This document shows, one piece after another, positions 13,055-19,604 of a stretch of DNA of 64,000 nucleotides (its first letter is position 1; the number at the start of each line of letters is the position of its first letter). The stretch covers positions 1,023,501 through 1,087,500 of the forward strand of contig NZ_CP046176.1 of NCBI RefSeq assembly GCF_013009555.1, written 5' to 3'. This DNA comes from Phocaeicola dorei (GTDB taxonomy: Bacteria > Bacteroidota > Bacteroidia > Bacteroidales > Bacteroidaceae). The notes below the pieces were generated by a model. That model saw nothing but the letters and a program-made list of their open reading frames with translations, was not told the DNA's origin and did no database searches. The position numbers and the translations under genes were made by a program.

Positions 13055-13130
13055 TTAAAAAAACATATTAATGAATAAATACCGCATTCTTACCGCTGCT
13101 CTTTCCTCGAAAGCGACGGTCGATGACTTT

Positions 13131-13335
13131 ACGTTTTGCAGGTCTTCTGACTTACTCCTGTTTACTTGCCTTCCCACCTTAATTATATATACAGGCAGTG
13201 GCGTGAGTGGATAAATAAACCTATCCCCTTATAGGGGTAGATGGAGCTTACAGCAGCGGGACTGTTCAGGACTTGCACCTGATTCCCTTTTCATCCGCTT
13301 CCTCGCATCAGTCGGAGGTACGCGGAACAAAACGT
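13131..13335 (-). promoter_or_regulatory. Cobalamin (adenosylcobalamin) riboswitch
   Basis: On the minus strand P1 pairs ACGTTTTG (13335-13328) with CAAAACGT (13138-13131). Between them are the conserved core GGGAATCAGGTGCAAGTCC, then ACAGTCCCGCTGCTGTAAG, a GCCACTG segment, GGGAAGGC, and the B12 box AGTCAGAAGACCTGC (13152-13138). These match the cobalamin aptamer consensus. The 76 nt before btuB (13055-13130) hold a hairpin around CTTTCGAGGAAAG that may be the expression platform. B12 binding should lower btuB expression (family knowledge). Confidence 0.95.
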
Positions 13336-13337
13336 GG

Positions 13338-13345
13338 CAAAGATA
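13338..13345 (-). promoter_or_regulatory. -7 box of the btu operon
   Basis: TATCTTTG on the minus strand, a perfect TAnnTTTG, lies 2 nt before riboswitch P1, so the transcript would begin at the aptamer. 13346-13572 holds no gene; it is AT-rich spacer with the hydrolase promoter at its right edge. Confidence 0.75.
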
Positions 13346-13572
13346 GTTTGTTTGGATGAATAAGAAAAGGGAAATGATAAAAAATCCTTTTTTGAAATTA
13401 GTTGCAGATTTATTTCTTTCCCAGCAAAAGTAGGCGTGTGTAACGGTTCTTTTTTAGTGGCAAAACTAGTTGATTCTATCCATGTTGAAGATAAAATGAA
13501 ATAGTATTGAATAAAATAAAACTGATGCTTAACAACATTCAAATATTGATTCGCTTTATTCAATATAATCAC

Positions 13573-15121: not shown

Positions 15122-15895
15122 TTATTTAATCTTTTCTCGAATCTTGCTAAGATAGGCACGCATCCCCGCAGCATCTTTCTTGTTGATGATATCCAACAGC
15201 TCATTTAATTCTGTACGGATACCTTCTACCTGTGCCGGGGTGCGGGGATTGAATAAAATTTCCTGCAACAGGTAGTCGTCTTCGCTTAGTACTCCTTTAG
15301 CTATCTTCATGTGGCGTTTGAAAGTAGTACCGGGAGCGTCCTGATGCTTCATCACTGCCGCAAAAACAAAAGTGGAAACAAAAGGGATAGACAGTGAATA
15401 GGCCACTGTCTCATCGTGCTCGTCGAAGGTATACTCAAAGATATTCAGACCAAGGTTTTGGTATAAGTCTTTGAAGAAGATTTTACCCAAATGGTCCCCT
15501 TCGCTGATGATGATGGCATTTTCGGTGCTCAGTTTGTCTAGGTTGGCAAATGTGGGACCGAACATGGGGTGAGTAGACACATAACGGAATCCGCATTGGT
15601 CATAAAATTCTTTCAGTCCGGTCTTTACCGAGGCAATATCGCTGATGATGCAATCCTTGGGGAGAGCAGGCAATACTTGGTGAAAAGCATCCAGTGTATA
15701 TTTCACGGTTGCCGCATTGATAACCAGTTCGGGCTTGAATTCTTCAATCTCTTCGAGTGTGGTATATCGGTAGGTATTGTAAACAAAACGAAGGCGTTTC
15801 GGGTCTACATCAAATACGGCGGTTTCGTGCTGGAAGCTCAATACATCGGTAAAGAAGGAGCCCATTTTACCGGCTCCTAAAATTAATATTCTCAT
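15122..15895 (-). CDS. tyrA: Prephenate dehydrogenase
   Basis: A 257-residue NAD(P)-dependent enzyme with a Rossmann motif at the N-terminus (LILGAGKMGSFF) and STHPMFGPTFANL, typical of the TyrA family. It converts prephenate to 4-hydroxyphenylpyruvate for tyrosine. It is the last gene of the aromatic operon, 4 nt after the DAHP synthase gene. I see no ACT domain, so feedback inhibition may act on the other enzymes. Control probably comes from the attenuator ahead of pheA. Confidence 0.92.
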   Translation of the reverse strand: MRILILGAGKMGSFFTDVLSFQHETAVFDVDPKRLRFVYNTYRYTTLEEIEEFKPELVINAATVKYTLDAFHQVLPALPKDCIISDIASVKTGLKEFYDQCGFRYVSTHPMFGPTFANLDKLSTENAIIISEGDHLGKIFFKDLYQNLGLNIFEYTFDEHDETVAYSLSIPFVSTFVFAAVMKHQDAPGTTFKRHMKIAKGVLSEDDYLLQEILFNPRTPAQVEGIRTELNELLDIINKKDAAGMRAYLSKIREKIK

Positions 15896-15899
15896 CGGT

Positions 15900-16967
15900 T
15901 TACTTATTTATGATTTCCATTTGTTGCCTTACGCTTTCTTCGTGGATGGCTTCGAATACTTTTTTAATGAAATCTGAGTCCATGCCGCACAGTGAGCCTT
16001 GTGCACCGCGCTTGTCTAGAATTTCATTGTAACGGCCTGTCTGCAGAATGGTCATATCATGTTCTTTCTTGAATGTACCGATTTCACGGCAGACACGCAT
16101 ACGTTTTGCCAATACCTCGATAATCTCATTGTCGCAATCATCGATTTGGTTACGCAGTTCGCCCAGGTTTTCGGTGGTTTGGGTTTCTTTGCGGATGACT
16201 AGCAGATTTAGGATATAGTCCAGCACATCGGGAGTGACTTGTTGGGCGGCATCGCTCCATGCACAGTCGGGATTGCAGTGTGATTCTACGATTAAACCGT
16301 CAAAACCTAAGTCCATCGCCTGCTGGCAGAGGGGAGCTACCAACTCGCGCTTGCCACCGATATGGCTGGGATCACAGAAAATCGGTAGTTCGGGAATGCG
16401 GCGACGCAATTCGATAGGGATATGCCATTGAGGCAGGTTACGGTAAATCTTTTTATCATAAGAAGAGAATCCGCGATGGATAGCACCCAGTTGCTTCAAA
16501 CCTGCATTATTGATGCGCTCGAAAGCTCCAATCCACAATTCAAGGTCAGGGTTGACAGGGTTTTTAATCAATATAGGAATGTCCACACCTTTCAGAGCAT
16601 CAGCAATTTCCTGCACGGCAAACGGGTTGGCAGTGGTGCGTGCGCCAATCCAAAGCACATCAATACCTGCCTTTAAACATTCGTAAACGTGTTTGGCTGT
16701 AGCCACTTCGGTGGCAACATACATACCGGTTTCCTGTTTCACACGTTTCAGCCATGCCAGGCCATCTACACCGATGCCTTCGAAACCTCCCGGTTTGGTA
16801 CGCGGTTTCCAAATGCCGGCACGGAAAATCTTGATGCCTTTATTGGCCAGCATGAGAGCTGTATCCATAACTTGCTGTTCTGTTTCGGCACTACATGGGC
16901 CGGCGATAATCATCGGGCGTTTTTTTTCAATTCCCGGAAGTTCGATGGGTTTTAAATCTAATTCCAT
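15900..16967 (-). CDS. aroF: Bifunctional DAHP synthase / chorismate mutase
   Basis: 355 residues. The N-terminal part (about 1-260) is a DAHP synthase of the short type-I-beta class (MIIAGPCSAETEQQ, FRAGIWKPRTKPGGFEG, CDPSHIGGKRELV). The C-terminal 90 residues are an AroQ chorismate mutase helix bundle (LGELRNQIDDCDNEIIEVLAKR). It thus catalyses the first step of the shikimate route and the chorismate-to-prephenate branch. Fusion of the two with the mutase at the C-terminus is known in Bacteroidetes, and the mutase domain may transmit prephenate or chorismate feedback. It lies 19 nt after the aminotransferase and 4 nt before tyrA. Confidence 0.93.
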   Translation of the reverse strand: MELDLKPIELPGIEKKRPMIIAGPCSAETEQQVMDTALMLANKGIKIFRAGIWKPRTKPGGFEGIGVDGLAWLKRVKQETGMYVATEVATAKHVYECLKAGIDVLWIGARTTANPFAVQEIADALKGVDIPILIKNPVNPDLELWIGAFERINNAGLKQLGAIHRGFSSYDKKIYRNLPQWHIPIELRRRIPELPIFCDPSHIGGKRELVAPLCQQAMDLGFDGLIVESHCNPDCAWSDAAQQVTPDVLDYILNLLVIRKETQTTENLGELRNQIDDCDNEIIEVLAKRMRVCREIGTFKKEHDMTILQTGRYNEILDKRGAQGSLCGMDSDFIKKVFEAIHEESVRQQMEIINK

Positions 16968-16986: not shown

Positions 16987-18171
16987 TTACATTATCTTTT
17001 TAATTCTTTCCAGTGCTTCAGCCAGTTTTTCTTCTTTGGCACAGAGGGAAATACGTATATAGCGTTTGCCGTTACTGCCGAAGATGAAACCCGGAGTGAT
17101 GAACACACGTGCTTCGTGCAAAACTTTTTCGGTCAGTTCTTCCACGTCATTGTAAGATTCGGGAATACGTCCCCAAAGGAACATACCTACCTGATTGGGA
17201 TCAAAGCTACAACCGAGTACTTTCATAATCTCTTCTGCCAGTTGGCGGCGGCGGCTATATACATTGACGTTCGCTTCTTCGTGCCATTCCACACTATTGT
17301 TGTAAGCTTGTGCGGCGGCCAGTTGCATGGGGCGGAAAGTTCCTGAATCAATATTACTCTTTATTTTCAATATCCATTGTACAAACTGCGCATTGGTGGC
17401 AAGCATTCCCACACGCCAGCCGGGCATATTGTGGCTCTTGCTCATAGAGTTGAACTCGATACAGCATTCTTTGGCTCCGGGCACATTGAGAATACTCAGT
17501 GGTTTTTTGTTCAGAATAAAGCTGTATGGGTTGTCGTTTACAATCACAATATTATGGCGGCGTGCAAAGTTTACCAGCTTTTCATAAAGTTCCATCGTGG
17601 CGTTCGCTCCGGTCGGCATATTGGGATAGTTGGTCCACATAATCTTGACGCGGCTCAAGTCCATCTTCTCCAGTTCATCAAAATCGGGTTGCCAATGGTT
17701 GTCTTCGCACAGGTTGTAGTTCACAATCTCACTGCCCAATATTTTATTTAAAGAGGTGTAGGTAGGATATCCCGGATTGGGAACTAATACTTGGTCACCA
17801 GGATTGACCAATGCCAACGTCACATGCAGGATACCTTCCTTGGAACCGATCAGAGGCTGGATTTCTGTCGCCGGATCAAGATCGACGTGATACCATCGTT
17901 TATACCAGTCGGCCATAGCTTTGCGTAGTTCGGGGATGCCGACAGTAGGTTGGTATCCGTGAACATCGGGGCGTTTTGCTTGCTCGCACAGTACTTGCAC
18001 GGTTTCTTCCGAAGGGGGCATGTCAGGGCTTCCGATGCCCAAACTGATTACATTCTTACCTTCGGCATTCATTTGTGCCACTTCTTTCAGTTTACGGCTG
18101 AAGTAGTATTCGCTAACATTCGCCAGACGGTTTGCCGGCTGAATATTATATGGTTGATGTTCCTTCTGCAT
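16987..18171 (-). CDS. Class I/II aminotransferase, probably aromatic
   Basis: A 394-residue PLP enzyme of the aminotransferase I/II fold. The PLP lysine is in FNSMSKSHNMPGWRVGM; NPGYPTY and the WTNYPNMPTGA segment are family motifs. The start overlaps the pheA end by 26 nt. In an operon with pheA, DAHP synthase/mutase and tyrA, transamination of phenylpyruvate and 4-hydroxyphenylpyruvate to Phe and Tyr is the natural role (inference). Sequence-wise it also resembles LL-diaminopimelate and alanine aminotransferases, so the substrate should be treated as unproven. Confidence 0.88.
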   Translation of the reverse strand: MQKEHQPYNIQPANRLANVSEYYFSRKLKEVAQMNAEGKNVISLGIGSPDMPPSEETVQVLCEQAKRPDVHGYQPTVGIPELRKAMADWYKRWYHVDLDPATEIQPLIGSKEGILHVTLALVNPGDQVLVPNPGYPTYTSLNKILGSEIVNYNLCEDNHWQPDFDELEKMDLSRVKIMWTNYPNMPTGANATMELYEKLVNFARRHNIVIVNDNPYSFILNKKPLSILNVPGAKECCIEFNSMSKSHNMPGWRVGMLATNAQFVQWILKIKSNIDSGTFRPMQLAAAQAYNNSVEWHEEANVNVYSRRRQLAEEIMKVLGCSFDPNQVGMFLWGRIPESYNDVEELTEKVLHEARVFITPGFIFGSNGKRYIRISLCAKEEKLAEALERIKKIM

Positions 18172-18988
18172 ATTCTCCTAATATTTTAAGTTCTTTTGTC
18201 AATGGTGAAACGGCGTCGATAGATTGCTTGTATCTTAAATAATCATTGAAGATCACGTCTACGTAGAACAGATATTCCCATTCTCGGCCTATAATCGGTA
18301 ATGATTGAATCTTGGTCAGGTTTATTTTATAGAAAGAAAAGATAGAGAGCACTTGCGACAAGCTTCCTTCGTTGTGAGGGAGGGAGAAAACGATGTTGGC
18401 TTTGTTTACTTTCGAACGTTCACGTAAGTCATCGGCTTTCCATGGGTCGGCCACTACAAGGAAACGCGTGAAGTTGTGTTTGTTTGTTTCGATGCCTTCT
18501 TCCAATACTTTCATTCCGTATAGATCGGCGGCATATTTGGAACAGATGGCGGCATGACCTTTCAAGTTTTCCCGTTTGATGGCTTCTGCACTTCCTGCTG
18601 TATCTTCCGTTTCTACTATCTTCAGTTTCGGATGTTGCATCAGGAACTCTCGGCATTGTGCCAAGGCAACGGGGTGGGAGTTTACTTCGGTCAATGTATT
18701 CCAGTCATCGTCGGGCAGACACATGAAACTGTGCTTGATGCGTAGTTTGTGTTCTCCGATAATGGTCATTCCACTTTCGCGCAGCAACTCATAGTTATGC
18801 AACAAGCTTCCTGCAATGGTGTTCTCGATAGCAAGCATACCAATGACATTGCTATCCTGTTTCATATTCGAAAAGATTTCTTCGAATGTGGAGCAGCAGA
18901 TTAGTTCGATTTCTTCACCTGGGAAGAATTTGTGGGCGGCAATGTCATGATATGAGCCCGGTACACCTTGTATTGCTATCTTTTTCAT
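18146..18988 (-). CDS. pheA: Prephenate dehydratase
   Basis: 280 residues. The catalytic domain spans about 1-180 (IQGVPGSYHDIAAHKFF, AIENTIAGSLLHNY, and TRFLVVADP). A C-terminal ACT domain has NIVFSLPHNEGSLSQVLSIFSFYKINLTKIQS, with the ESRP-type position replaced by QSLPI. It converts prephenate to phenylpyruvate; the ACT domain normally binds Phe for feedback. It is the first structural gene behind the leader-peptide attenuator at 19004-19158. There is no fused chorismate mutase here because the mutase is on the DAHP synthase. Confidence 0.94.
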   Translation of the reverse strand: MKKIAIQGVPGSYHDIAAHKFFPGEEIELICCSTFEEIFSNMKQDSNVIGMLAIENTIAGSLLHNYELLRESGMTIIGEHKLRIKHSFMCLPDDDWNTLTEVNSHPVALAQCREFLMQHPKLKIVETEDTAGSAEAIKRENLKGHAAICSKYAADLYGMKVLEEGIETNKHNFTRFLVVADPWKADDLRERSKVNKANIVFSLPHNEGSLSQVLSIFSFYKINLTKIQSLPIIGREWEYLFYVDVIFNDYLRYKQSIDAVSPLTKELKILGEYAEGTSTI

Positions 18989-19003: not shown

Positions 19004-19033
19004 AAAAAAATCCCGCTTCTGCCGGAAGCGGGA
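19004..19033 (-). terminator. Attenuator terminator ahead of pheA
   Basis: Minus strand: TCCCGCTTC (19033-19025), loop CGGCA, GAAGCGGGA (19019-19011), then seven U (19010-19004): a perfect 9-bp intrinsic terminator 16 nt before pheA. A second copy of GAAGCGGGA at 19096-19088, inside the leader peptide gene, can pair with the first arm instead and act as antiterminator. Confidence 0.93.
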
Positions 19034-19068
19034 TTTCGTTGTTATTATCACATTGATTTATTCGTTGT

Positions 19069-19158
19069 TTAACGTATACATACAAATTCCCGCTTCACTT
19101 TGTTGCTAAAGTAAAAGTAATAAAAGAAGAAAAAGTATGTATTGTATAATGCTTTCAT
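19069..19158 (-). CDS. Phe/Tyr-rich leader peptide of the aromatic operon
   Basis: A 29-codon frame: MKALYNTYFFFFYYFYF, then SNKVKREFVCIR and stop at 19069. Of residues 5-17, ten are Phe or Tyr, and nine of these are consecutive. It starts 29 nt after the -7 box and ends 35 nt before the terminator hairpin. The antiterminator strand (19096-19088) lies in codons 21-24, a little after the aromatic run. A ribosome stalled for lack of Phe-tRNA or Tyr-tRNA would leave it free, and a ribosome at the stop codon would mask it. This is the classic attenuation layout. I did not find a gene symbol in use for it. Confidence 0.9.
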   Translation of the reverse strand: MKALYNTYFFFFYYFYFSNKVKREFVCIR

Positions 19159-19186
19159 TTTGTTCTTATTGTTATTGAATACGCTG

Positions 19187-19216
19187 CAAAAGTAATATAT
19201 TTCTAGCAAAAACAAA
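19187..19216 (-). promoter_or_regulatory. Promoter of the aromatic operon
   Basis: Minus strand: -33 TTTG (19216-19213), 18-nt spacer, -7 TACTTTTG (19194-19187). It matches the Bacteroides consensus at both boxes and sits just before the leader peptide. Confidence 0.8.
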
Positions 19217-19247: not shown

Positions 19248-19604
19248 TTAGACAGTGCCTGTTTGGCTCCTGCTTTCCATAATTCCCGGCATCTGTTGTA
19301 AAGCCCAATCTACTAATCCTTCTATATGTGGTATTAAGCTTTTCCCTCTTTCTGTCAGTTCATATTCTACTCGTGGCGGAACTTCGGCATATACTCTCCG
19401 GCTCACTAGTCCGTCAGTTTCCAGTGTGCGCAGGGTTACAGTCAGCATGCGTTGTGAGATATCGGCTATTGTCTTATGAATATCGCAAAATCGCATGGTT
19501 CCGTTAGCATTTAATGTGATAAGAACTAGCATAGACCACTTATCACCAAGCCTGCACAATACATTCCGTACAGGACAATTATCATCCGGATGAAAATTTT
19601 TCAT
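19248..19604 (-). CDS. HxlR family transcription regulator
   Basis: A 118-residue winged-helix protein with HxlR landmarks: a Cys near the N-terminus (DNCPVRNVLCRLGDKWSML), RFCDIHKTIADISQRMLTVTLRTLETDGLVSR and VPPRVEYELTERGKSL. HxlR regulators such as YodB and HypR sense electrophiles or oxidants through the conserved Cys. It is divergent from a DJ-1/PfpI protein gene 189 bp away, so it probably controls that gene and itself. A dyad AGTA-N7-TACT overlaps its -7 box. The aromatic operon promoter lies just past its stop, but I see no link. Confidence 0.9.
   Translation of the reverse strand: MKNFHPDDNCPVRNVLCRLGDKWSMLVLITLNANGTMRFCDIHKTIADISQRMLTVTLRTLETDGLVSRRVYAEVPPRVEYELTERGKSLIPHIEGLVDWALQQMPGIMESRSQTGTV

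Follow-up and report, generated by a model that had tools for sequence, protein, structure and literature searches.

The sequence upstream of pheA in Phocaeicola dorei is, by comparison with its relatives, very probably a ribosome-mediated transcription attenuator that responds when charged tRNA-Phe or tRNA-Tyr runs short, with a joint phenylalanine/tyrosine operon under its control. The leader lies on the minus strand of the window, the whole 64,000-nucleotide stretch of DNA analysed here, between an HxlR-type gene on the same strand (end 19248) and pheA (start 18988); its parts are listed in Table 1. The first-pass annotation had already placed a leader-peptide attenuator here, and the 29-codon frame, the seven U residues and the antiterminator copy at codons 21-24 that it described were all found in the sequence. 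Its pairing of that copy with the first terminator arm, with three extra pairs after one mismatch, also holds: GAAGCGGGA can base-pair with the terminator 5' arm, and UUU extends the pairing past the mismatch (19096-19084), giving a duplex of -20.7 kcal/mol. Two of its figures needed correction, as the Phe/Tyr run counts ten codons in a row instead of nine (codons 8-17, 19137-19108) and the terminator stem GAAATCCCGCTTC/GAAGCGGGATTTT pairs over 13 bp instead of 9 (19037-19007, -19.3 kcal/mol, with T7 at 19010-19004). The consensus promoter that it had named is present as a motif, with TTTG (19216-19213) and TACTTTTG (19194-19187) separated by 18 nt, which we take to be of the Bacteroidota type; a sigma-70 scan did not call it. 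The start of the aminotransferase ORF as called lies within pheA, overlapping its last 26 nt (18146-18171), which suggests translational coupling.

Table 1. Parts of the pheA leader and the genes of the operon behind it (positions in the window).
Feature	Position	Strand	Basis
-33 box TTTG, Bacteroidota-type promoter	19213..19216	-	sequence
-7 box TACTTTTG (TAnnTTTG)	19187..19194	-	sequence; relatives compared
Leader ORF, 29 codons plus stop, MKALYNTYFFFFYYFYFSNKVKREFVCIR	19069..19158	-	sequence; leader in 113/115 distinct family loci
Sensing codons, ten Phe/Tyr in a row (codons 8-17), YFFFFYYFYF	19108..19137	-	sequence
Region 1, TTT TAC TTT closing the run (three codons), able to pair with codons 20-22	19108..19116	-	folds (about -5 kcal/mol), synonymous codon bias
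Weak 1:2 protector hairpin, 3' side (codons 20-22), overlapping antiterminator	19093..19101	-	folds
Region 2, antiterminator strand GAAGCGGGA(A)UUU within leader ORF (codons 21-24)	19084..19096	-	pairing, spacing, covariation
Region 3, terminator 5' arm GAAATCCCGCTTC	19025..19037	-	terminator fold
Region 4, terminator 3' arm GAAGCGGGATTTT	19007..19019	-	terminator fold
U7 tract (partly within region 4)	19004..19010	-	sequence
pheA, prephenate dehydratase (PF00800)	18146..18988	-	Pfam
Class I/II aminotransferase (PF00155; here named aspC)	16987..18171	-	Pfam
aroF, DAHP synthase fused to chorismate mutase (PF00793, PF01817)	15900..16967	-	Pfam
tyrA, prephenate dehydrogenase (PF02153)	15122..15895	-	Pfam

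The PheA protein shares 97-98% identity with its counterparts in P. vulgatus, P. massiliensis, P. sartorii and P. faecalis. PheA loci were sampled from named species genomes (80) and from the family (30 and 20 more), together with 57 of the 59 matches in other families of the order and 43 of the 47 matches in other orders of the class; removal of 15 duplicates left 215 distinct upstream regions (115 family, 57 order and 43 class). With a leader defined by at least six Phe/Tyr codons within 12 codons, one precedes pheA at 113/115 distinct family loci, 50/57 order loci and 26/43 class loci, and shuffled sequences reached the same level in 18/1300, 20/560 and 5/430 cases, respectively. No leader above this threshold was found at 2/115 family loci (L034 and L166), 7/57 order loci, including one whose upstream sequence is just 15 nt long (L133), and 17/43 class loci. 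The leader is not universal before a Phe/Tyr operon, since aspC, aroF or tyrA lies downstream at 17 of the 24 order and class loci without one; at L122, L151, L191 and L196 all three genes lie behind pheA and no leader exceeds the threshold. L196 and L199 do contain short sub-threshold frames with YFWFY. In the 120 nt before the leader ATG, a TAnnTTTG box is present in 111/113 family, 37/49 order and 15/26 class leaders (control in reversed sequence: 14, 3 and 4 leaders, respectively), and an intrinsic terminator, weak in some cases, stands between leader and pheA in 109/113, 48/50 and 26/26 leaders, respectively. The fold of the 202-nt P. dorei leader was equalled by 1 of 200 shuffles (z -3.1).

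The codon content of the run follows the gene content of the operon, which lends indirect support to the first-pass proposal of a single switch that reads both amino acids. Among the order and class loci sampled first, Tyr occurs in the run of all 72 leaders with partner genes (aroF being detected behind 71 of them) versus its absence from three of the four leaders before a lone pheA (Fisher p 5.7e-5); for those four pheA genes, a search of about 3.9 to 6.0 kb of downstream sequence gave no match to the aminotransferase, aroF or tyrA, and the reading frames there agree. Once more loci from the four families of these lone genes were added, 0/82 leaders with aroF, aminotransferase or tyrA as partners lack Tyr in the run and the Tyr fraction is 0.43. 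The 17 lone-pheA leaders have a Tyr fraction of 0.06, 10 of them carry no Tyr in the run, and some of the remaining Tyr codons lie outside the dense run; since they come from only four families, the independent events behind the rule are few. A further 13 of the 30 lone-pheA rows in these families gave no counted leader, and leader loss before a lone pheA is thus common too. About 210 nt after one lone pheA (L236, family f39), same-strand frames resemble ilvD and ilvB by reading.

In three of the four lone-pheA families (f19, f29 and f99), aroF and tyrA form separate units with leaders of their own, in which Tyr codons outnumber Phe codons. The f19 tyrA-aroF unit carries MNNTFGYYAFYYYFFYNN; an example from the f29 aspC-aroF-tyrA unit is MIKNISVFAYFYYYFYFSKK (four genomes, in which pheA has a leader with a Phe-only run in two and none detected in two); and the f99 aspC-tyrA-aroF unit has two leaders, for example MTTYTFSYFYYWFRTP and MITSSFYYFWNYYYLFY. 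In the fourth family, f39, the tyrA query had no match in eight of nine genomes and a weak match in the ninth. This query misses divergent TyrA proteins, so that tyrA is under-counted in the partner-gene tallies; the f19 and f99 prephenate dehydrogenases, Pfam-confirmed in the separate units (L351 and L349, respectively), matched it only at E values of about 1e-4 to 1e-6. Four of five f99 loci (L349, L350, L353 and L354) have two aromatic leaders in tandem upstream of aspC-tyrA-aroF, each followed by a separate terminator and by a stretch that could act as antiterminator (-5.4 to -11.1 kcal/mol, weak in some), and at L352 the first of two leaders would start before the available sequence. Trp codons inside or ending the Phe/Tyr run are seen in order and class leaders (for example L137, L183-L186 and L227); they occur in 15/82 runs with partner genes and 0/17 before lone pheA, too few cases to claim Trp as a third input.

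These leaders bear directly on whether the attenuator answers Phe alone in practice, with the Tyr codons passive, which we regard as rather unlikely. Such a response would match the C. glutamicum AroR leader, which is described as reacting to Phe limitation without a Tyr effect (PMC11802643), a report that also qualifies the two-amino-acid claim, and Phe codons do exceed Tyr codons in runs with partner genes (394 to 294). However, passive Tyr codons would hardly account for a residue that is nearly absent before lone pheA, yet present in 82/82 runs with partner genes, and that outnumbers Phe where aroF and tyrA stand apart. We consider it reasonably likely that Bacteroidia as a class inherited a single attenuator with mixed Phe and Tyr codons from a common ancestor and that these codons were re-tuned as the operon broke up, becoming Phe-only before lone pheA and Tyr-rich before aroF/tyrA, with Trp sometimes added and two attenuators placed in series in one family, the codon mix being an evolvable input layer. 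The split operons offer a natural experiment on the matching of leader codons to the genes they control and open two-amino-acid sensing to a direct test; if this re-tuning took place, the regulatory inputs of an operon could be read from its leader.

Conserved F/Y runs and compensatory changes, for which the first-pass annotation had advised looking in relatives, were both seen. The distance from the end of the run to GCGGG is 14 nt in 105/108 family rows (108 of 110 measurable; duplicates included), and leader length varies, the stop codon preceding the antiterminator in 20/108 rows; a spacing that is nearly fixed despite a moved stop points to selection on RNA geometry and not on the peptide. 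Family runs almost always end in TTT TAC TTT with near-zero synonymous variation, TTC being absent at the last and third-last run codons and TAC standing at the second-last in 112/113, and both TAT/TAC and TTT/TTC vary further upstream in the run. This bias fits the weak 1:2 hairpin with codons 20-22.

The pairing cores of antiterminator and terminator arm differ by lineage, as in ACGGGAT/ATCCCGT (L115), GGCAGGA/TCCTGCC (L116), AAGGTGGGA/TCCCACCTT (L114) and AGGTGAGGC/GCCTCACCT (L189). A first automatic search for terminator and antiterminator, by identity with arm 4, returned wrong matches (T runs) because arm 4 often has mismatches or G-U pairs against arm 3, and it was replaced by a search for pairing with arm 3. 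In a swap test, a leader's own terminator arm pairs better than the mean of the arms of other loci in 88/109 family, 46/48 order and 24/26 class cases. A PheA tree with 121 tips (90 from the family and 31 from the order), read at eight pair columns, gives 27 inferred double changes that preserve pairing, along with 12 one-sided changes that keep it, 30 that break it and 6 that repair it, and one column changed from GC to AT six times with zero breaks; these counts cost a double change at 1.5 and pick the register by best pairing, both of which favour compensatory readings. The swap test, in which the same optimisation acts on both sides, is the fairer control and carries more weight, since the cost scheme of the tree favours double events. 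Leader conservation, covariation between antiterminator and terminator arm, and near-constant spacing in the family all argue for the ribosome-mediated attenuation that the first-pass annotation had recognised.

It is very unlikely that the nascent peptide itself arrests the ribosome, in the manner of TnaC or Erm, in place of uncharged tRNA. Peptide endings like KVKREFV are frequent in the family, but base pairing explains this ending, which is lost where the stop comes earlier; moreover, Phe and Tyr swap at run positions -4 to -10, leader length is variable, and amino acid content tracks operon content. Slightly harder still to credit is a metabolite-binding riboswitch or an RNA-binding protein that works the hairpins and leaves the frame incidental: two alternative hairpins would fit any attenuator, yet it is the reading frame and its spacing that are conserved, and no Rfam family reaches its gathering score in the leader region (Rfam 15; a permissive threshold gave only sub-threshold matches). 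The run by itself does not settle the question of chance, as the 5.6 Mb genome has two matches to a nine-codon TWY pattern and two more when the pattern is read backwards; the pheA leader is the sole such run in a leader-like setting, the second (L111) being rejected as a leader because it is antisense to the end of a frame read as dinB-like. It is conservation that excludes chance, and there is next to no likelihood that a chance frame in a T-rich tract precedes the ordinary terminator of the HxlR-type gene, even with that gene ending close by at 19248 on the same strand, as class-wide conservation before pheA and covariation contradict it.

From the parts, conservation, spacing, covariation and codon-to-operon rule observed in these leaders, we infer stalling, termination and a response to either amino acid. 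RNA polymerase would make the 29-codon leader with a ribosome close behind. When Phe and Tyr are plentiful, the ribosome would pass codons 8-17 and cover codons 21-24 as the terminator 5' arm emerges, and with the antiterminator covered the terminator would form just upstream of pheA. When Phe or Tyr is short, the ribosome would stall within the run; the antiterminator strand, starting about 11-12 nt past the run and thus just beyond the assumed ribosome footprint, would be free to pair with the terminator 5' arm, allowing transcription into pheA-aminotransferase-aroF-tyrA.

Folding models with assumed footprint sizes give stalled states in which the antiterminator forms before arm 4 is made (family mean 0.94-0.95). 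With the ribosome at the stop codon, the antiterminator probability is 0.41 as the family mean, 0.47 for the P. dorei leader, 0.05 for the order and 0.17 for the class. Masking in this state is large in the order and class sets and partial in the family, where most leaders extend beyond the antiterminator; the models thus imply that the family off state would have to rely on ribosome transit, the 1:2 hairpin or timing. In the ribosome-free model the antiterminator is already favoured at the stage before arm 4 (0.98 for the P. dorei leader, family mean 0.72), owing to the weakness of the 1:2 hairpin, and superattenuation via a strong 1:2 hairpin found no support in the energies (1:2 about -5 versus 2:3 about -20.7 kcal/mol). 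In full-length equilibrium folds the terminator is dominant on average in every modelled state, and the modelled switch must therefore be kinetic.

Other regulatory elements are present in the genome. Upstream of hisG (L344), the leader MVRTATHHHHFPNE is followed by what reads as a hairpin with a T run, and is likely a His attenuator. A Bacteroid-trp RNA (L343, 79.8 bits) with the leader MVNTYWWRFLQLNKS lies upstream of a frame read as trpB-like. A cobalamin riboswitch occupies 13120-13347 of the window on the minus strand (95.8 bits).

The attenuation principle is classical and the lineage is little described; its presence here is well supported by comparison of sequences. Among the matches listed from open-licence literature, no title or abstract opening names a Bacteroidales Phe/Tyr attenuator. 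What is new, as far as searched, is the element in Bacteroidales, how widely it occurs, the codon-to-operon rule and the tandem copies. A mechanism best known from proteobacteria thereby gains a firm comparative footing in Bacteroidales, a major gut group, and the leader type spans gut and environmental bacteria, with inputs predicted gene by gene.

The leader of E. coli pheL has Phe codons and no Tyr run. The P. dorei leader is like pheL-pheA (Rfam Phe_leader, RF01859) in placing leader-peptide attenuation before pheA, and unlike it in mixing Phe with Tyr and in an operon that adds aroF and tyrA; RF01859 scores 28.3 bits on the leader region, below its cut-off of 55. In E. coli single leaders also read more than one amino acid, at the ilvGMEDA and thrABC attenuators; the P. 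dorei leader would share this property, but those attenuators are proteobacterial and read other amino acids. The AroR leader of C. glutamicum reportedly lies upstream of aroF (Neshat 2014). Compared by description, it too has Phe and Tyr codons before a DAHP synthase operon; it differs in phylum and operon and reads Phe-Tyr-Phe. The account that reports no effect of Tyr availability on AroR also describes the pheL attenuation as dependent on charged tRNA-Phe (PMC11802643).

Within Bacteroidota, Bacteroid-trp (RF01692) is a described RNA element (PMC2864571). The pheA leader has another leader peptide and another target, and Bacteroid-trp is absent from the 22 Rfam matches of the leader region at E up to 10. 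Small ORFs recalling leader peptides have been noted in 5' UTRs of B. thetaiotaomicron (PMC7366714), and comparative work published in 2010 (Lopatovskaya and colleagues, cited in PMC4833913) may hold related predictions. The first-pass view that the mechanism is best described in proteobacteria stands with an addition, as it leaves out published hints from Flavobacteriaceae, in which a conserved pheA 5' element without Rfam matches and leader-peptide clues upstream of amino acid operons have been reported (PMC9723704). That description, in the parts available, gives no sensing codons, antiterminator or wider reach (PMC9723704). Like the P. dorei leader, this pheA 5' element is of the same class, precedes the same first gene and has no Rfam match, and the two are probably the same ancestral element.
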